From a virus: DNA of 27,906 nucleotides. The DNA lies in IMG/VR virus record IMGVR_UViG_3300006754_002917, positions 1 to 27,906 of that record; one strand, written 5' to 3'. Below are positions 3,775 to 9,238 of this stretch, piece by piece. Below the pieces are notes generated by a model. The model was given only the letters and a program-made list of their open reading frames with translations, was not told the origin of the DNA and searched no databases. Made by a program: the position numbers and the translations under genes. The first letter of the stretch is position 1; each line of letters starts with the position of its first letter.

Positions 3775-4026
3775 ATGGGATTCTATGAGAGCGATAGGAT
3801 TCGGCGTAAGCAGAAGTTAGTTAAAAAGATTATTAAGAAGAGGGAAGATATGGGTAAGGCAGAAGAAGTAAGTGTTAGTGTAGCGGACGATCTATTGAGG
3901 TTGCTCTGGAAAGTATTCAAGTATGGCAAAGGTGGTTATACAAAAGAAGAAGCCAGAGATCTCGGAGAAGACCTGCTGGCTCTTGCATTTGAAGTACTTG
4001 AGAAAGCACTAGATAAGGAAGACTAA
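3775..4026 (+). CDS. Small charged helical protein of unknown function
   Basis: This gene encodes 83 residues from the ATG one base after the previous stop, probably by translational coupling. The same frame is open further upstream inside the holin-like gene, but that part reads as an out-of-frame shadow. A second ATG at 3850 has a better Shine-Dalgarno site (GAGGGA) and would give 58 residues. The N-terminus is very basic (RIRRKQKLVKKIIKKR) and the C-terminus is an acidic amphipathic helix. The stop codon overlaps the stop of the convergent gene by three bases, with no visible terminator between them. No family recognised. Confidence 0.5.
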   Translation: MGFYESDRIRRKQKLVKKIIKKREDMGKAEEVSVSVADDLLRLLWKVFKYGKGGYTKEEARDLGEDLLALAFEVLEKALDKED

Positions 4027-4712
4027 GCGATCATAGATCCAGTGATAATCTTAATTACATTGGACTTGCGTTCAGCGTGGATATCTTCAAAGTCGTTGGG
4101 TTGATTATTTTTTAAGTCAGCCCAGTGTCCTTTGTTTAGTATAGTCCAGATGCGTTTGCATTGTGGTACATTCTTGATGGATGGAATGATATGTCCAGTC
4201 CAGTATAAAGTATCCTTGAGAGGGATGATGGATTTGAATCCGTATTCCTCAGCAGTAGGCATATCGCCGTGTGGTACTTTATAGATGAAGCCGGGACAGT
4301 CATTACGATTATCCATATTCTGATGTGCTACACCCATACGACAGTTCATTTGTTCCATCTTTTGAAAACGCTTGTATAGTGTTTTGGCGTGATAGAAATG
4401 AGCAGTATAGTTTTTCATATTGACGAAGCAGATTAGATCTATTAGGTCAATGTTAGTATACCATTGAGGTCGTTTAGATTTCTGATCGTCCTGATAGATT
4501 TCAAATACGAAGTCGCTATAGCCTACTTGGTTCCAGTCTAATGCCTTGACCTCTATGTTCATAGTGGCTCCGGATTTCATTAGTGCTGTAAGATCGTAGG
4601 GGAATATACGATAGTCCATCTTTTGACAAGGATGGTTATGTTCCTCAAATGCTAAGCGTACTGCTTGCTCTGTCCATTCTGCTTTGATTAGGTCTGTGTT
4701 GAAATTTTGCAT
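4023..4712 (-). CDS. PD-(D/E)XK-like nuclease, second gene of leftward operon
   Basis: This gene encodes 229 residues from the ATG at 4712, which has AAGGAG at good spacing. A longer frame from 4751 overlaps the upstream gene and was rejected. The N-terminal half shows a plausible PD-(D/E)XK nuclease core: an early helix with Glu15 (EWTEQAVRLAF), PYD with Asp40, then IEVK with Glu54 and Lys56 after a 13-residue gap. Such folds occur in phage exonucleases, Holliday junction resolvases and restriction-like nucleases; which one applies here is not clear. It could degrade host DNA, process replication intermediates or help recombination. It is co-transcribed with a sigma-like protein. The motif reading is by eye, so the fold is likely but not proven. 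Confidence 0.5.
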   Translation of the reverse strand: MQNFNTDLIKAEWTEQAVRLAFEEHNHPCQKMDYRIFPYDLTALMKSGATMNIEVKALDWNQVGYSDFVFEIYQDDQKSKRPQWYTNIDLIDLICFVNMKNYTAHFYHAKTLYKRFQKMEQMNCRMGVAHQNMDNRNDCPGFIYKVPHGDMPTAEEYGFKSIIPLKDTLYWTGHIIPSIKNVPQCKRIWTILNKGHWADLKNNQPNDFEDIHAERKSNVIKIITGSMIA

Positions 4713-4740
4713 AGTAGTTTTCTCCTTATTGTTATTACTG

Positions 4741-5400
4741 TTATGCAGCATCAGATTCTACTGGTGTAGGTAGTGATGCCTTCAAGGTAAGTCCCTTGAA
4801 TTTGTGGATTAGTTTCCGTTTATGACTGTGGAAAGTTTGTCGTGTAACAATCTTGCCGGGGTAATTCAGAACATATTTGTAATGTTCGTCGTATACGATA
4901 TCGTCCAGTCCAGTCATTGACCGGAAGATAAAGCGTTCTCGTTCTGTTGCGTGATATTCGCAGAAGTCAGAGATAAGTTGATAGATAGATTTGTTTGTCA
5001 TTAGTTCCTCCATATTATCTATTGTACTATAAGTTAGACTATTTGTAAAATCTTTTAGTTTATATTGTAATGTTCGCTTATACCTTTTGGATTGTTTGCG
5101 AAGCTTGTATGAATACCAGTCCCTGAATATCTTGATAGATAATGGTTTGAATTGTTCAATGGGTAGGTCTATAAATTTAGTTAGTGCTCGTTGTTCCTCA
5201 GAATAAAATGCTGCTGAGGTAGAGAGAATAGATCGTTCTAATTTATCTGATGGATTCCAGACACGACAGGTAGCTCTAAAGTATTCAGCCTTCTTGACTT
5301 GATGTGTCATACAGAGAAGAGCGTGAAAGTATGAGGCGATGCCGTTGCGGTCAGTTAATAAGAAATGGATCTTATCGTCGGGTAGTAGTTTGGATTGCAT
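4741..5400 (-). CDS. Putative transcription regulator with sigma region 4-like C-terminus
   Basis: This gene encodes 219 residues, starting at an ATG about 27 bases downstream of the expected transcription start of a good leftward promoter, with a weak AGGA site. Residues about 90-118 are strongly basic and helical. Residues about 151-202 (from ATERERFIFRSMTG to TRQTFHSHKRKLIHKFKG) follow the pattern of sigma70 region 4 or late-activator helix-turn-helix domains, with an extended loop between the helices. It could redirect RNA polymerase or repress promoters in the divergent control region next to it. The gene is followed, 28 bases on, by the nuclease-like gene. The N-terminal half has no recognised domain. 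Homology is weak, so a DNA-binding protein of another type is possible. Confidence 0.4.
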   Translation of the reverse strand: MQSKLLPDDKIHFLLTDRNGIASYFHALLCMTHQVKKAEYFRATCRVWNPSDKLERSILSTSAAFYSEEQRALTKFIDLPIEQFKPLSIKIFRDWYSYKLRKQSKRYKRTLQYKLKDFTNSLTYSTIDNMEELMTNKSIYQLISDFCEYHATERERFIFRSMTGLDDIVYDEHYKYVLNYPGKIVTRQTFHSHKRKLIHKFKGLTLKASLPTPVESDAA

Positions 5401-5540: not shown

Positions 5541-5597
5541 TGAAATAAAATAAAAAAGACCCCGACCCTGAAACTACTACATAAAAGGGAAGGGGTC
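5541..5597 (-). terminator. Leftward intrinsic terminator with no protein gene in front of it
   Basis: Read on the minus strand, GGGGTC (5597-5592) pairs with GACCCC (5563-5558). An inner AGGG/CCCT stem sits across a two-base internal loop, and the apical loop is about 16 bases. The hairpin is followed by TTTTTTATTTTATTT. On the plus strand there is no T tract, so the terminator acts only on leftward transcripts. It isolates the leftward operon promoter from transcription coming from the right. Confidence 0.6.
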
Positions 5598-5797: not shown

Positions 5798-5890
5798 GAG
5801 AATGGATTTCTGAAAGAATAAATACTGAGGAATATAGAATATATTATAGTAGAGACTGAGGGGTGAAAGTTCTGATAGATTATTTCTTAT

Positions 5891-5915
5891 CAAGACCGAA
5901 GGAACTGAGGTCTTG
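5891..5915. repeat. Perfect 7-bp hairpin in the rightward leader region
   Basis: CAAGACC (5891-5897) pairs with GGTCTTG (5909-5915) across an 11-base loop. On the plus strand it is followed by a T-rich but interrupted tail (TTAGTTGTTAGATTATTTAA), so it might be a weak attenuator or end for rightward transcription from copy A, or an operator. Confidence 0.3.
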
Positions 5916-6070
5916 TTAGTTGTTAGATTATTTAATTTGAAAGTTGAAAGTTAGAAGTTAGATTAAAGTGATAGTGTCCTTCAGATTAATTTATTAATAA
6001 AATTATTTATTTAATATTATTGTAATAGAAGATTAAACAAAATGTTATAGTTGGTTATTATATATATAAC

Positions 6071-6097
6071 TGATTGATTGAATGGTTTGATTGATTG
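6071..6097 (+). repeat. Short direct repeat TGATTGATTG, two copies
   Basis: The 10-mer occurs at 6071-6080 and 6088-6097, each made of ATTG-type units, next to an AT-only tract and just before the ribosome binding site of the first rightward gene. It may be a regulator or initiator binding site, or simply low-complexity sequence. Confidence 0.35.
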
Positions 6098-6122
6098 GTT
6101 GAAATAATAAAGGAGAAATAAA

Positions 6123-6557
6123 ATGTCAGTAAGTTATAGAGATTTAGAGAAAGAGAAGAAGAGATTAGAGAGAGAGGAAAGAATATTATTGAAGGAGATT
6201 AATATGAAGAGAGATTATTATGAGATGATGTTTGGTGAGGATAGTAAAGAGGAGAGAGGAAAGTTAGAGGAGATTATAGAAGAGAAGGAGAAGTTATATG
6301 AAAGGAGAGAAGAAAGTATTAGTGAATGGGGAAGTGAGGTAGAAGGAAAGTTGATAAGGGTTAGGACAAAAAGTATTGGCTACTTTGGTGTTGGTGTAAA
6401 GAATGTGAGAGGTAGGATTAAAAGAGGAGAGGTAGTAGTTTGTATGGGTAGTAGGAAGGAGAATGAGAGAAGGTTATTGTGTATGTATAATGGTGGCTTG
6501 GTTAGTATTAGTAAGAAGCAAGTGATTAGAGAATGTGATGTGATTGACGAGGCGTAG
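6123..6557 (+). CDS. Cytosine-depleted early gene: coiled coil plus small basic C-terminal domain, unknown
   Basis: This gene encodes 144 residues, with AAGGAG placed well before the ATG. Residues 1-70 are a highly charged Lys/Glu/Arg coiled coil. Residues 75-144 look like a small beta-barrel (GRIKRGEVVVCMGSRKENER, then NGGLVSISKKQVI), perhaps SH3-like. The gene has only 8 cytosines in 435 bases, and 239 consecutive bases have none, which forces codons to GAG, AAG, AGA, TTA and ATT types. The protein therefore has no Pro or His and almost no Ala, Thr or Gln. It heads the rightward small-gene cluster and is closed by its own terminator. Function unknown; a host-takeover or nucleic-acid-binding protein is a guess. 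Confidence 0.6.
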   Translation: MSVSYRDLEKEKKRLEREERILLKEINMKRDYYEMMFGEDSKEERGKLEEIIEEKEKLYERREESISEWGSEVEGKLIRVRTKSIGYFGVGVKNVRGRIKRGEVVVCMGSRKENERRLLCMYNGGLVSISKKQVIRECDVIDEA

Positions 6558-6571
6558 TAGATAAGAGATAG

Positions 6572-6616
6572 ATCCAGTGGTTGTAATGGCTGCTGGATTT
6601 ATTTTATTTATTTGTA
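6572..6616 (+). terminator. Intrinsic terminator after the first small gene
   Basis: ATCCAG (6572-6577) pairs with CTGGAT (6593-6598), and the stem can extend inward to about 11 bp using several G-U pairs around a GTAAT loop. It is followed by TTATTTTATTTATTTG. It lies 15 bases past the stop codon. Confidence 0.6.
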
Positions 6617-6625
6617 ATAGTAGGG

Positions 6626-6653
6626 TATACAAAAGTAAAGGATATGGTATAAT
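6626..6653 (+). promoter_or_regulatory. Sigma70-type promoter before the second small gene
   Basis: A consensus TATAAT (6648-6653) is preceded after 16 bases by TATACA (6626-6631). Transcription would start near 6660, giving a leader of about 60 bases in which TGAGG (6661-6665) can pair with CCTCA (6691-6695). Its position just after a terminator supports it. Confidence 0.55.
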
Positions 6654-6720
6654 ATATATATGAGGTTAGGGGATAGCTCATTAAATAAATCCTCAGCATT
6701 TTGATAAAGGAGATAAAGAA

Positions 6721-7026
6721 ATGTTAAGAATTCAAGAGAATGTATATATGATGGATGAAGAAGGTAATAAGTTTATGAAGCTTATGGATGCTGAAGAATG
6801 TATTGCCTGTTATTGGGTGAGGGCAGTAATTGGTTTGAAGGATGGTATGGATCAAGTGGTAGGTAATTATTTCTTCAGTAGATTAGAGGATGCAGAAGAT
6901 AAGATGAGAATGATAAGAAGAGGAGAATATGGTATTGATGAGGAAGGAGAAGATGTATTGTTTGGAGATGAAGAGAAGTGGGGTAATGCTTCAGCTTGGA
7001 TTAAGCCTATTAGGGCAATGAGGTAG
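6721..7026 (+). CDS. Small acidic protein, unknown, own promoter and terminator
   Basis: This gene encodes 101 residues; the ATG is fixed by AAGGAG eight to nine bases upstream. The protein is acidic and Met-rich (KMRMIRRGEYGIDEEGEDVL) with two cysteines in ECIAC and no membrane segment. It is monocistronic, with a promoter at 6626-6653 and a clear terminator at 7038, which suggests strong independent expression. It shares the purine-rich, cytosine-poor codon use of its neighbours, though less extremely. No family recognised. Confidence 0.6.
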   Translation: MLRIQENVYMMDEEGNKFMKLMDAEECIACYWVRAVIGLKDGMDQVVGNYFFSRLEDAEDKMRMIRRGEYGIDEEGEDVLFGDEEKWGNASAWIKPIRAMR

Positions 7027-7037
7027 AGATATAATTA

Positions 7038-7074
7038 GAAGCCCTTGGCTGTACGCTGAGGGCTTCCTGTTTTA
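7038..7074 (+). terminator. Intrinsic terminator
   Basis: GAAGCCCT (7038-7045) pairs with AGGGCTTC (7059-7066). Four more pairs, two of them G-U, extend it (TGGC with GCTG) around a TGTAC loop. It is followed by CTGTTTTA and begins 12 bases after the stop codon. Confidence 0.65.
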
Positions 7075-7136
7075 CTAAATGGTAGTTTATATAGGTGGAT
7101 TAATAGGATGGCTTAGAAGACAAGGAGAGGCGTTGT

Positions 7137-7490
7137 ATGAAATGGAAGAAAGGAGCGGAGGATAAAAGAAAAAATGAATGGAAGATTATTAGAGGAGATA
7201 GAACAGTGACAACATTGACGGCAGAAGAATTAGCGTGGAGAAGAAATAAGATAAGATATCTAAGAGAGATAGATTGGAAGAAGATAAAAAGAAATAATGT
7301 AGAATTAGTTTCTTTAATATTTGCTATAGCAGAGATAAAGGCTAAAGAAGATAATGGTATGTCTCAGCGTAATCAAAAGAATTTCTATGAGACAACTTGT
7401 GATAAGACTTTAGATGAGATATGGAAAGATATAAAGGGAGGCAAGTATAATGGAAAAGAAAGGTGTATACAGATTCTTTATTATGATTGA
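7137..7490 (+). CDS. Small basic protein, unknown
   Basis: This gene encodes 117 residues from an ATG preceded by AAGGAGAGG. The N-terminus is very basic (MKWKKGAEDKRKNEWKIIRG). A central amphipathic helix (VELVSLIFAIAEIKAKED) and a short C-terminal domain with two cysteines follow. It could bind nucleic acid, but no motif is diagnostic. Its last 41 bases overlap the next gene, which implies coupled translation. Low-cytosine codon use matches the cluster. Confidence 0.55.
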   Translation: MKWKKGAEDKRKNEWKIIRGDRTVTTLTAEELAWRRNKIRYLREIDWKKIKRNNVELVSLIFAIAEIKAKEDNGMSQRNQKNFYETTCDKTLDEIWKDIKGGKYNGKERCIQILYYD

Positions 7491-7644
7491 TGGCATTGGT
7501 AATAATGTAGATGAGGCGTTGGTAAATGCTATGAATTCAGTAGGGATAGATGATCCAAATAAATTGACTGGAGATATAGACTATAAATTAATTAAAGAAT
7601 ATAAAGATATAGTGTATGTGCATAGTAAGGTAGGCGAAGCTTAA
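7450..7644 (+). CDS. 64-residue protein, unknown, overlapping the previous gene
   Basis: The start has an excellent ribosome binding site (GGGAGG, eight bases before the ATG) inside the end of the previous gene, in another frame. The sequence alternates a beta strand (GVYRFFIMIDG), a helix (NVDEALVNAMNSVGI), and a strand-like end (KDIVYVHSKV), suggesting a compact alpha/beta domain. No catalytic motif was found. It is followed by about 230 gene-free bases that carry the next promoter. Confidence 0.55.
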   Translation: MEKKGVYRFFIMIDGIGNNVDEALVNAMNSVGIDDPNKLTGDIDYKLIKEYKDIVYVHSKVGEA

Positions 7645-7708
7645 TCCTCAGCACACTTAGTGTTTAGTAATAATTCTTTGGAATATAAGAATATATTCTA
7701 GATAAATC

Positions 7709-7737
7709 TTTACATAAGTATCTGGCTGGTGTATAAT
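7709..7737 (+). promoter_or_regulatory. Strong sigma70 promoter for the sigma-like gene
   Basis: TTTACA (7709-7714) and a perfect TATAAT (7732-7737) are separated by exactly 17 bases. Transcription would begin near 7744 and leave a leader of about 135 bases, AT-rich and without an obvious fold, before the gene at 7879. The -35 context TCTTTACA is shared with both copies of the two-copy element. Confidence 0.75.
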
Positions 7738-7878
7738 ACTAATGGTAATTATTTTACATAATGATTATTTATATGAGGTGAATACTTATAGTTATTACTA
7801 ATTATTATAGTAAGATGTTCAGTTGATTTATGTAAATAGTTAAATGAATGGATACTAATGTTAAGGAGACTATAAGGT

Positions 7879-8337
7879 ATGTGTAAAATCGAAACGGATG
7901 AGAATAATAAAAGAATTAGAAAGAAGAGGTATAGAAAGTTCAAGGATGATTGGCGTTATATTGGCTGTGATAATTGGAGATTAGATAAGGTCAGTGGACA
8001 TTATTCCCCAGAAGATGAATGGATTAATCAGATTGATAACGAAAACATTATCACATTTCCCCCTCAGATAGCATTGGTCGATTGGATCGCAGATGTGCTG
8101 GAGGAAAGGGAAGCAAAAATAATAAATGATTTTGTGTGGGAAGGTAGAAGTATGGATGAGATAGGAAAGGAATTAGGTTATACAAGACAGAGGATATGGC
8201 AGTTGTACAAGCAAGGGCTAGAGAAGATAGGCGAGATAGTGGGAGATGCAGAACAGTTCAAGGCTCTGTTCATTATGGAAGGGAATGGTAGAGATAAAGA
8301 GAATAAGGAACAACCTCATTTGGCGCAAGCCAAATGA
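7879..8337 (+). CDS. Sigma70 region 4-type helix-turn-helix protein
   Basis: This gene encodes 152 residues behind the best promoter in the window and an AAGGAG site. Residues about 65-117 read as a sigma region 4: EEREAKIINDFVWEG, then a helix-turn-helix, MDEIGKELGYTRQRIWQLYK, then QGLEKI, matching the EIG..LG.TR.R..Q pattern of the -35-binding helix. The N-terminal 60 residues are basic and aromatic and do not resemble region 2, so it is unlikely to be a complete sigma factor. It may be an appropriator or activator that alters host polymerase at phage promoters. The last codons and the TGA stop lie inside a perfect hairpin. Confidence 0.7.
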   Translation: MCKIETDENNKRIRKKRYRKFKDDWRYIGCDNWRLDKVSGHYSPEDEWINQIDNENIITFPPQIALVDWIADVLEEREAKIINDFVWEGRSMDEIGKELGYTRQRIWQLYKQGLEKIGEIVGDAEQFKALFIMEGNGRDKENKEQPHLAQAK

Positions 8338-8342
8338 GGTTG
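8311..8342 (+). terminator. Perfect 14-bp hairpin with GCAA loop, overlapping a gene end
   Basis: CAACCTCATTTGGC (8311-8324) pairs perfectly with its complement at 8329-8342 around a GNRA-type GCAA tetraloop. The stop codon of the upstream gene (8335-8337) is inside the right arm. There is no clear U tract after it (TGTGTTAGATTAAAA), so it may be an RNA-stability or processing hairpin as well as, or instead of, a terminator. Confidence 0.5.
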
Positions 8343-8427
8343 GTGTGTTAGATTAAAATCTAAGAAGAAGAAGATAAGAATTAATTAATTAATTCTGTAA
8401 ATATAGGATAGGGAGGATATAATAAGA

Positions 8428-8691
8428 ATGAAGAAAACTACATTCAAAGCGATCAAGGATCGTGATATAGAAACGGTGTTATGGGATTTAGTGGATGAAG
8501 CTATGAGGGAATTTAATGTGTCTCGGAATTGTAAGATAGGGAGACAAACATTTAGTAATATCCTCAGTACGCTAAGTCAGATGGAGATGTTGAGACGAAG
8601 AAGAGAAGATAAGAATTATGATAAGAAGATAGAGCAGGAAGAATATGATATGAAAGATTGGTTGACAGTATTGGATGGTACAGGAAAGTAA
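8428..8691 (+). CDS. Small helical protein; possible small terminase subunit or regulator
   Basis: This gene encodes 87 residues, with GGAGG about 11 bases before the ATG. It is entirely helical and charged: an N-terminal KDRDIETVLWDLVDEAMREF helix, a middle region (GRQTFSNILSTLSQM), then MLRRRREDKN and an acidic end. Small size, helical make-up and a place two genes before TerL would suit a small terminase subunit, but no helix-turn-helix is clear and the position is not diagnostic. A DNA-binding early regulator is equally possible. Confidence 0.45.
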   Translation: MKKTTFKAIKDRDIETVLWDLVDEAMREFNVSRNCKIGRQTFSNILSTLSQMEMLRRRREDKNYDKKIEQEEYDMKDWLTVLDGTGK

Positions 8692-8693
8692 TC

Positions 8694-8725
8694 AGATAAG
8701 TGAATGAGATAAGTGAATGAGATAA
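8694..8725 (+). repeat. 13-bp tandem repeat carrying two ATG-AGA-TAA minimal frames
   Basis: The unit AGATAAGTGAATG occurs at 8694-8706 and 8707-8719, with a partial third unit to 8725. Each repeat junction creates a two-codon frame, ATG AGA TAA (8704-8712 and 8717-8725). It starts three bases after a stop codon and runs directly into the hairpin at 8725. Confidence 0.6.
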
Positions 8726-8753
8726 ACCCAAATTCGCAAAGCGAATTTGGGTT
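8725..8753 (+). terminator. Perfect 13-bp hairpin with AAA loop
   Basis: AACCCAAATTCGC (8725-8737) pairs perfectly with 8741-8753. Only TGTAAGAATAG follows, so there is no U tract. It resembles the hairpin at 8311-8342 in design and may be a processing or stability element between small genes. Confidence 0.5.
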
Positions 8754-8775
8754 GTAAGAATAGTAAGGAAATAAA

Positions 8776-8970
8776 ATGTTTAAGTTGGTGTTAGGTAAGT
8801 TGGATGTGGATGTGAGGATAAAGAAGGATAGAAGGAAGAATCAATATAGTAAGTCAGATCTATCGGTGAAGATAAAAATAAAATATGATGATGATTGGAT
8901 AGATGTGGATATTGATAAGGGTAAGTTAAGAGATGTGGTTGATGATTGGGTAAGTGATATAAGTGGTTAG
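8776..8970 (+). CDS. 64-residue charged protein, unknown
   Basis: The start follows AAGGA after a perfect hairpin. The protein alternates Lys and Asp with Val and Ile (KLDVDVRIKK, DDDWIDVDIDKGKL), consistent with a small beta-rich domain. It lacks Pro, Ala, Thr and His, in line with the local absence of cytosine: its last 106 bases contain none. No family recognised. The coding call depends on the ribosome binding site and codon pattern. Confidence 0.45.
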   Translation: MFKLVLGKLDVDVRIKKDRRKNQYSKSDLSVKIKIKYDDDWIDVDIDKGKLRDVVDDWVSDISG

Positions 8971-9060
8971 GTTAGTTAGGTTGGTTTGGTTTATGTGGTA
9001 ATGGTTAATGTGGTTAATGGTTTTGGTTATGGTAATTAATGGTAGAAGAATATAATGGTT
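8967..9060 (+). repeat. G/T-rich low-complexity tract with GGTTA-type repeats
   Basis: This gene-free stretch is made of G, T and A only. GGTTAGGTTAGTTAGG is followed by several copies of TGGTTAATG and TGGTTATGG. It lies inside a 218-base run without cytosine (8865-9082). Short frames here start in low-complexity sequence and were not accepted. It could be a regulator or replication-protein binding tract. Confidence 0.45.
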
Positions 9061-9138
9061 AATAATGAAATGAATAGTGAATCATATCTAAACTGTAAAA
9101 ATATAAAAAATATATATAAGGTATATAAGGGGTATATG

Positions 9139-9167
9139 TTATCATATAGAATTTATCTATATGATAA
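9139..9167. promoter_or_regulatory. Perfect 12-bp inverted repeat upstream of terL, possible operator
   Basis: TTATCATATAGA (9139-9150) is the exact reverse complement of TCTATATGATAA (9156-9167), with ATTTA between. It lies about 70 bases before the terL start, preceded by two GTATATAAGG-like repeats. A second small stem, CCAAA with TTTGG, and six T's follow near 9172-9196. A dyad of this length suits a dimeric regulator; the arms are too AT-rich for a strong terminator. Confidence 0.4.
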
Positions 9168-9238
9168 TAGCCCAAAATTATTTGGCACCATTTTTTCCAC
9201 ATTGACATTACTATTGTTAAAGACGGAGAAACCAATAT

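Follow-up and report, generated by a model that had tools for sequence, protein, structure and literature searches.

The marine phage sequence IMGVR_UViG_3300006754_002917, analysed here over its entire 27,906 nucleotides (nt) and referred to as the window, contains two plus-strand segments from which cytosine (C) is almost entirely missing, in codons as well as in the adjoining non-coding DNA. This C starvation is a real, maintained and convergent feature, and a general, site-unspecific hazard of C for early RNA would fit it best. An earlier note on the window had reported two C-free runs on the plus strand, 6128-6366 (239 nt) and 8865-9082 (218 nt), together with a gene at 6123-6557 (termed e6123) having just 8 C in 435 nt, and all of these values are exact. 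The longest C-free run expected from a shuffled window is ~55 nt, with maxima of 98 nt among 500 mononucleotide shuffles and 114 nt among 300 first-order Markov sequences. As the note had also described, the e6123 protein is free of Pro and His and nearly free of Ala, Thr and Gln (1 residue each), and in the starved units as a whole these five amino acids, all encoded by C-containing codons, account for just 1.05% of residues, down from 24.6%. Non-coding DNA is depleted to a similar extreme, containing 0.6% C in the starved units versus 12.4% elsewhere (p ~1e-35, relatives pooled), which bears out the note's argument that protein function alone is an insufficient explanation.

The note had further proposed a single starved module spanning 6123-9082. 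Both ends of this region are indeed starved, but the depletion is uneven and the C-poor zone begins upstream of 6123, extending from ~5913 to 9082. It consists of two starved segments, a 5' unit and a 3' unit formed by the gene e8776 and its non-coding tail, which are separated by a middle region that is merely C-poor. At synonymous sites, C/(C+T) is 4/49 in e6123 and 0/26 in e8776, compared to 16/61 in a sigma-like gene located at 7879-8337 and 57/261 in TerL, meaning that the sigma-like gene has synonymous C as high as TerL. Where C does persist, it occupies the -35 boxes, the stems of hairpins and a number of conserved codons. The entire plus strand is also mildly short of C (~15% C, 25% G), even where leftward genes are read on that strand, which is a separate effect and a far weaker one than that of the starved units.

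Two further origins of the pattern were considered. An artefact from bisulfite-like reads or misassembly was rejected, because many contigs obtained from different samples show the pattern, the reading frames remain open and free of the stop codons expected from C-to-T conversion, and the flanks on the same contig have normal C. Replication-strand GC skew is likewise not supported as the cause, since the starved units form sharp local minima beside a non-starved gene and the skew of the whole strand is only mild.

Distribution among relatives and in an unrelated phage

The window phage encodes a phrog_2-type terminase, a portal and a major capsid protein (MCP). Starvation occurs at the same position in every relative that covers the region with a TerL identity of at least 63%, and ~60 loci with a TerL identity of 56% or lower are not starved. 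Similarly, 43 of the 45 longer records from the wider MCP and TerL families lack a C-free run of at least 96 nt on either strand, while the remaining 2 are members of the clade. Neither of the findings that the note had named as refuting was made: relatives sharing the same genes are starved too, and unrelated parts of the genome are spared. Within the clade, sequence comparisons indicate that the depletion is tied to place and not to particular genes. Among e8776 homologues of 48-94% identity, each gene in which synonymous C was counted has 0-2 of them, and the relative L010 carries an extra gene without any C. In L104 and L175, ~1.4 kb are maintained at 0-1% C, including a C-free run of 428 nt, even though the genes are partly unlike those of the window. 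L019 and L127 have no recognised e8776, yet a nearly C-free tail before TerL is kept. This tail is GT-rich in the window and AG-rich in the L104/L028 and L019 lineages, nearly C-free throughout. As to the boundaries, the zone of L104 starts just 3' of the first rightward promoter-like site, with ~12-14% C in the untranscribed DNA before it, and the point at which C returns falls at the same motif in near relatives. Recent horizontal transfer, suggested in the earlier note as a possible cause, is not supported, as the depletion is clade-wide, bound to the same place and retained despite gene replacement.

A single viral contig, L177, was retrieved with a generic probe made of a ribosome-binding site, a start codon and ~126 letters other than C. 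Its terminase belongs to another family (phrog_38), and it has no convincing homologue in common with the window. L177 contains 0 C over 1,125 nt from its inferred transcription start site (TSS) and 0-4% per 100 nt thereafter, while the 100 nt upstream have 25% C. Its C-free unit diverges from the terminase operon, and its contig name includes the sample number 3300025873, as do those of L003 and L028 of the window's clade. A relative of L177 from a cultured collection (MW202554, 31% TerL identity) is not starved. The longest C-free runs in other phages are 40 nt in T7, 57 nt in the first 50 kb of SPO1, 37 nt in the first 50 kb of T4 and 76 nt in HTVC010P. Judged from these sequences, one unrelated case obtained with a narrow probe shows recurrence of the feature, not its frequency. 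Positions 3351-3796 of L177 (reverse complement) encode small C-free, cysteine-rich proteins in overlapping frames that have the appearance of zinc-binding domains.

Probable selection against C and its target

Between close strains (window-L018, L104-L175, L102-L173, L004-L005 and L005-L007), the starved regions exhibit 1 C/T difference for 32 A/G differences, whereas normal regions exhibit 71 for 76 (Fisher p ~2e-7, with differences treated as independent and L005 used twice). A very fast C-to-T reversal could mimic such missing C/T differences, and it is the identity of the base taking the place of C that carries weight. Exchanges of C with A or G are also suppressed; between the window and L002, the starved regions have 1 A/C and 2 G/C differences versus 29 A/T and 17 G/T. 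Furthermore, T makes up a share of 0.39 of the non-C bases at GGN/GTN third positions in starved genes versus 0.54 in late genes (p 0.008), and in the non-coding DNA of the starved units the rise in G matches that in T. Because T is not enriched and A/C and G/C changes are suppressed, deamination, one of the causes put forward in the earlier note, is not supported as the explanation in the window's clade, where purifying selection against C is a better account than mutation. L177 taken alone is ambiguous, as its third-position T fraction of 0.46 is compatible with C-to-T change. Overall, selection against C in the starved transcripts is very probable.

Several targets of such selection were compared. 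The starved units fold at ~-2 to -4 kcal/mol per 60 nt, late genes at -10 to -12 and the starved proteins recoded in late-gene codons at -5 to -6.6. However, the starved units have no extra openness relative to synonymous or mononucleotide shuffles (z mostly <= 0, one gene +1.6), and the folding of L177 equals that of its shuffle. Selection for unstructured mRNA, as the earlier note had also envisioned, thus finds no support beyond what composition predicts. Avoidance of MazF-type (ACA) or other motif-specific toxin sites is not supported either, since the depletion of ACA does not exceed that of other C trinucleotides (a ratio of 0.53 versus ~0.5 overall), nearly all C contexts are depleted in the C-poor middle region, and CC and TC are depleted no more than AC and GC. 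Purine loading also lacks support, because the pyrimidines are not both reduced: T is retained at 0.25-0.32 in starved genes and 0.37 in starved non-coding DNA, while A, G and T are about equal in L177. Lastly, selection for G or for R-loops was rejected, as g1, a gene of L010, is not G-enriched (26-34% G3), though e8776 is (66-67%). With folding, T avoidance, motifs and G preference all failing, C itself remains as the target. A single C is removed even with no further C nearby, so it is more plausible that every C carries its own cost than that the cost is cooperative, as it would be with Rho loading or folding.

Possible causes of a proposed C hazard

Our best overall explanation, which we favor only tentatively, is that the presumably early units are kept C-free by selection, at a cost for each C, with a form linked to cytidine triphosphate (CTP) as the most likely one. 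Accordingly worded as a model, the RNA of the early transcription units would be held nearly cytidine-free from the promoters on by purifying selection, in codons, untranslated regions (UTRs) and spacers alike, with C retained mainly where it is needed, namely in the untranscribed -35 hexamers, in hairpin stems and in some conserved codons. Each cytidine in the earliest phage RNA would then be an independent cost, with the transcripts made, or having to survive, while C is hazardous. The hazard could lie in elongation by the host RNA polymerase being slowed or ended at C, owing either to a shortage of CTP or to a CTP analogue, an example being ddhCTP, the chain terminator produced by prokaryotic viperins. 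By lacking C, the first transcript would escape this hazard and deliver the first phage proteins, while later transcripts would need no exemption. Prokaryotic viperins (pVips) do make ddhCTP, an RNA chain terminator that acts against phage (PMC12926258). A CTP-linked cause as such is possible, if somewhat doubtful. The steps of this model that are backed by data are the pattern itself, its start at a predicted promoter or TSS in L104 and in L177, its retention despite gene turnover, the suppression of changes involving C, and its recurrence. Other steps are inferred, namely that the units are early, that the RNA is the target as opposed to the non-template strand of the DNA, and that the cause is linked to CTP. 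The early RNA is presumably synthesised by the host RNA polymerase, given that the scanned proteins included no recognisable polymerase, helicase, primase or phage RNA polymerase. The complete absence of C over 239-1,125 nt would also make Rho loading or folding unlikely as the basis of the cost, as both presumably respond to many C together.

A number of observations weigh against this explanation. Firstly, the designation of the starved units as early draws upon gene position, promoters and the sigma-like gene, and the promoters and TSS are themselves sequence predictions. Secondly, e8776 is starved despite being the last gene before TerL with no promoter recognised upstream, although pure 5' polarity predicts otherwise, while the sigma-like gene is not starved, though it is probably included in the same transcript. 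No simple version of the model explains both the starved e8776 and the spared sigma-like gene. Thirdly, terminator stems hold runs of C that a strict CTP block would hit too, albeit at little cost at the 3' end of a unit. Fourthly, pVips also make ddhGTP and ddhUTP (PMC12926258), yet C alone is avoided. Lastly, L177 is the only case with the pattern found outside of the clade, and a search of cellular genome contigs for the MCP yielded no relative, and hence no host to which a viperin, CTP-depleting enzyme or nuclease could be tied. In its broadest form, the proposal would be that some marine hosts impose a hazard upon each cytidine of early viral RNA through an as yet unrecognised defence that depletes CTP, supplies a CTP analogue or cleaves at C, and that unrelated phages have independently answered with C-free immediate-early genes and UTRs employing an alphabet of ~15 amino acids. 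This we regard as somewhat unlikely.

Among the other explanations, a C-specific cleavage or shut-off from which the phage exempts itself is unlikely, though it is a close rival of the favored model. A host or phage single-strand endoribonuclease, or a C-sensing terminator resembling Alc, would act while the starved units are expressed, and C in stems would be tolerated as double-stranded. The leftover C of the starved units does lie largely in hairpin stems, the e8776 unit is flanked by hairpins on both sides, C is avoided whatever its context, and T4 Alc offers a precedent by terminating transcription on DNA with unmodified C (PMC2988021). However, neither a nuclease nor an Alc-like protein was recognised among the early proteins using Pfam and PHROGs, most of these proteins being unannotated. 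In addition, what Alc detects is unmodified dC in the DNA, and C is still present on the template strand here. Moreover, the C-containing sigma-like and late genes need to be expressed too.

Avoidance of Rho termination appears quite improbable. Transcripts without C would have no rut sites, and the C-containing, G-poor tract before TerL would then permit termination. Rho loads on unstructured and sometimes C-rich RNA (PMC2988021), the untranslated spacers are C-free, and C-rich tracts come after the C-free tail in L104, L028 and L019. In contrast, C is already lower than G genome-wide, such that its full absence over >200-1,125 nt presumably exceeds what is needed, the CC and TC contexts are not preferentially lost, and the tightly packed genes of L177, which are presumably well translated, are C-free as well.

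Selection for open mRNA, in which the removal of C would eliminate G-C pairs and leave RNA unfolded in cold water at no expense to start codons, Shine-Dalgarno sequences, stops or -10 boxes (none of which need C), is consistent with the weak folding of the starved units relative to late genes and to their late-codon recoding. It is nonetheless very improbable, given that the starved units are no more open than shuffles and that U is avoided in neither L177 nor the GT-rich tail. Strand-specific mutation, through deamination of C on the non-template strand displaced in early units under heavy transcription, would account for a depletion that lies on this strand and begins at the promoter, and both the mild genome-wide deficit of C on the plus strand and the T fraction of L177 are compatible with it, but the base replacements described above and the spared sigma-like gene render it exceedingly improbable. 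Equally remote is an evasion at the DNA level, in which a C-free strand, having by sequence logic no palindromic site with a G-C pair, would lose all sites needing both G and C and thereby shield the first-entering DNA from restriction-like systems, as the boundary lies at the TSS or promoter with C upstream at ~25% in L177 and 12-14% in L104, and such sites are avoidable without the loss of every C.

Features of the window and comparison with known systems

The features of the C-poor zone and its surroundings are compiled below. The leader probably includes what is left of an upstream unit, gene g1, which L010 retains. The e6123 protein is predicted to form a long helix (residues 5-73) followed by an SH3-like barrel (AlphaFold mean pLDDT 85), and a fold search with this model was uninformative, yielding weak SH3-like matches only, none at E <= 0.001. 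Its homologues are found in L002, L010 and L019 at 72-79% identity and in L104 at 33%. The 3' half of the gene is nearly identical at the DNA level between the window (6347-6557) and L010 (705-913), the L019 counterpart being 940-1145. The L019 protein is 75% identical to that of the window, while TerL is just 65% identical, and this greater conservation likely reflects gene exchange or strong constraint. The predicted structure of the e8776 protein is poor (pLDDT 51), and e7137 has a weak PHROG match to the host nuclease inhibitor family phrog_803 (E 0.015).

Table 1. Positions of predicted genes, promoter-like sites and hairpins in and around the C-poor zone of the window
Feature	Position	Strand	Observation or basis
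Leftward operon, for contrast	4023..5400	-	Own RNA C-rich (22-23% C)
Nearly C-free leader before first rightward gene	5913..6122	+	3% C over 5900-6122
Promoter-like site in leader	6034-6061	+	Sequence prediction
e6123, starved gene, 144 amino acids (aa)	6123..6557	+	8 C in 435 nt
Terminator-like hairpin ending e6123 unit	6565..6605	+	Its C mainly in stem arms
Promoter-like TATACA-16-TATAAT, TG before second hexamer	6626..6653	+	Similar sequence in L010 and L002
e6721, C-poor gene, 101 aa	6721..7026	+	5% C
Terminator-like hairpin	7038..7066	+	Sequence
e7137, C-poor gene, 117 aa	7137..7490	+	6% C
Small overlapping gene, 64 aa	7450..7644	+	Open reading frame
Strong promoter-like TTTACA-17-TATAAT upstream of sigma-like gene	7709..7737	+	Similar sequence in L010
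Sigma-70 region-4-like protein, 152 aa, synonymous sites not starved	7879..8337	+	Pfam Sigma70_r4 E 8.7e-9; phrog_351
Perfect 14-bp hairpin at end of sigma-like gene	8311..8342	.	Sequence
e8428, C-poor gene, 87 aa	8428..8691	+	8% C
Perfect 13-bp hairpin directly 5' of second starved unit	8725..8753	.	Sequence
e8776, starved gene, 64 aa, last before TerL	8776..8970	+	0/26 synonymous C
C-free non-coding tail	8971..9082	+	GT-rich in window
Block where C returns, conserved hairpin and C-containing tract just 5' of TerL	9083..9238	+	

Within the block where C returns, 9139-9167 is a conserved inverted repeat (TTATCATATAGA/TCTATATGATAA) and 9180-9222 is a G-poor, C-containing tract before TerL; the C-rich tracts following the C-free tail in L104, L028 and L019 are CCTCCACCCCC, CTCCCCCCCCC and CCCTCCTTCC. 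Between the leftward and rightward operons, repeated CTGA(G/A) words were noted by eye in the window (5811-5908) and in L104 (1890-1995), and these are possibly binding sites or an origin. A strong hairpin of the GACCCC...GGGGTC type also lies between the divergent operons (window 5559-5597), similar in shape and different in sequence in L104 (1620-1660), which could be a terminator or a small RNA. Rfam returned nothing significant, this hairpin included. The contig L196, from a relative, joins the ends of the window (27906 to 1) via ~2.5 kb that lie within a single giant virion-protein frame. With this bridge the genome measures ~30.4 kb, and no replication or RNA polymerase genes were recognised in it.

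If our reading of the starved units is true, sequence alone would reveal an undescribed pressure on early phage RNA, one that strips five amino acids from whole proteins across divergent lineages. Long C-free runs beginning at a promoter could then serve as a search signature leading to phages, hosts and possibly a new antiviral mechanism. In addition, the starved genes would encode natural proteins with a reduced amino-acid alphabet.

No description of C-free phage early genes was found in the open-access literature, most subscription papers being outside that scope. In the purine loading of mRNA (Szybalski's rule, Forsdyke), the composition of transcribed sequence is biased by strand such that the RNA stays unpaired. 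The starved units share this strand-wise bias, but here one base is nearly removed while T remains at 24-35%, and the boundaries are sharp, unit-specific and inclusive of non-coding DNA. Since the tests for purine loading, deamination, skew, folding selection and motif avoidance all speak against these explanations, the starved units appear to be a new kind of feature, as far as the open-access literature shows. T4, with its Alc protein and C-modified DNA, is similar in that phage transcription is exempted from a C-dependent block (PMC2988021). However, T4 modifies C throughout, whereas these phages would exempt their earliest units only, and would do so by omitting C. The ddhCTP of prokaryotic viperins likewise represents a C hazard in RNA synthesis, one that a C-free transcript would escape (PMC12926258). 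Escape from Rho through rut avoidance is comparable insofar as C matters and untranslated spacers are affected, but in the starved units C is wholly absent in every context, closely packed coding genes included. The early host-takeover modules of phages such as SPO1 and T7 similarly encode many small and often unrelated proteins behind several host-type promoters, but their longest C-free runs, as given above, are 40 nt in T7 and 57 nt in the first 50 kb of SPO1, in place of the hundreds found here.

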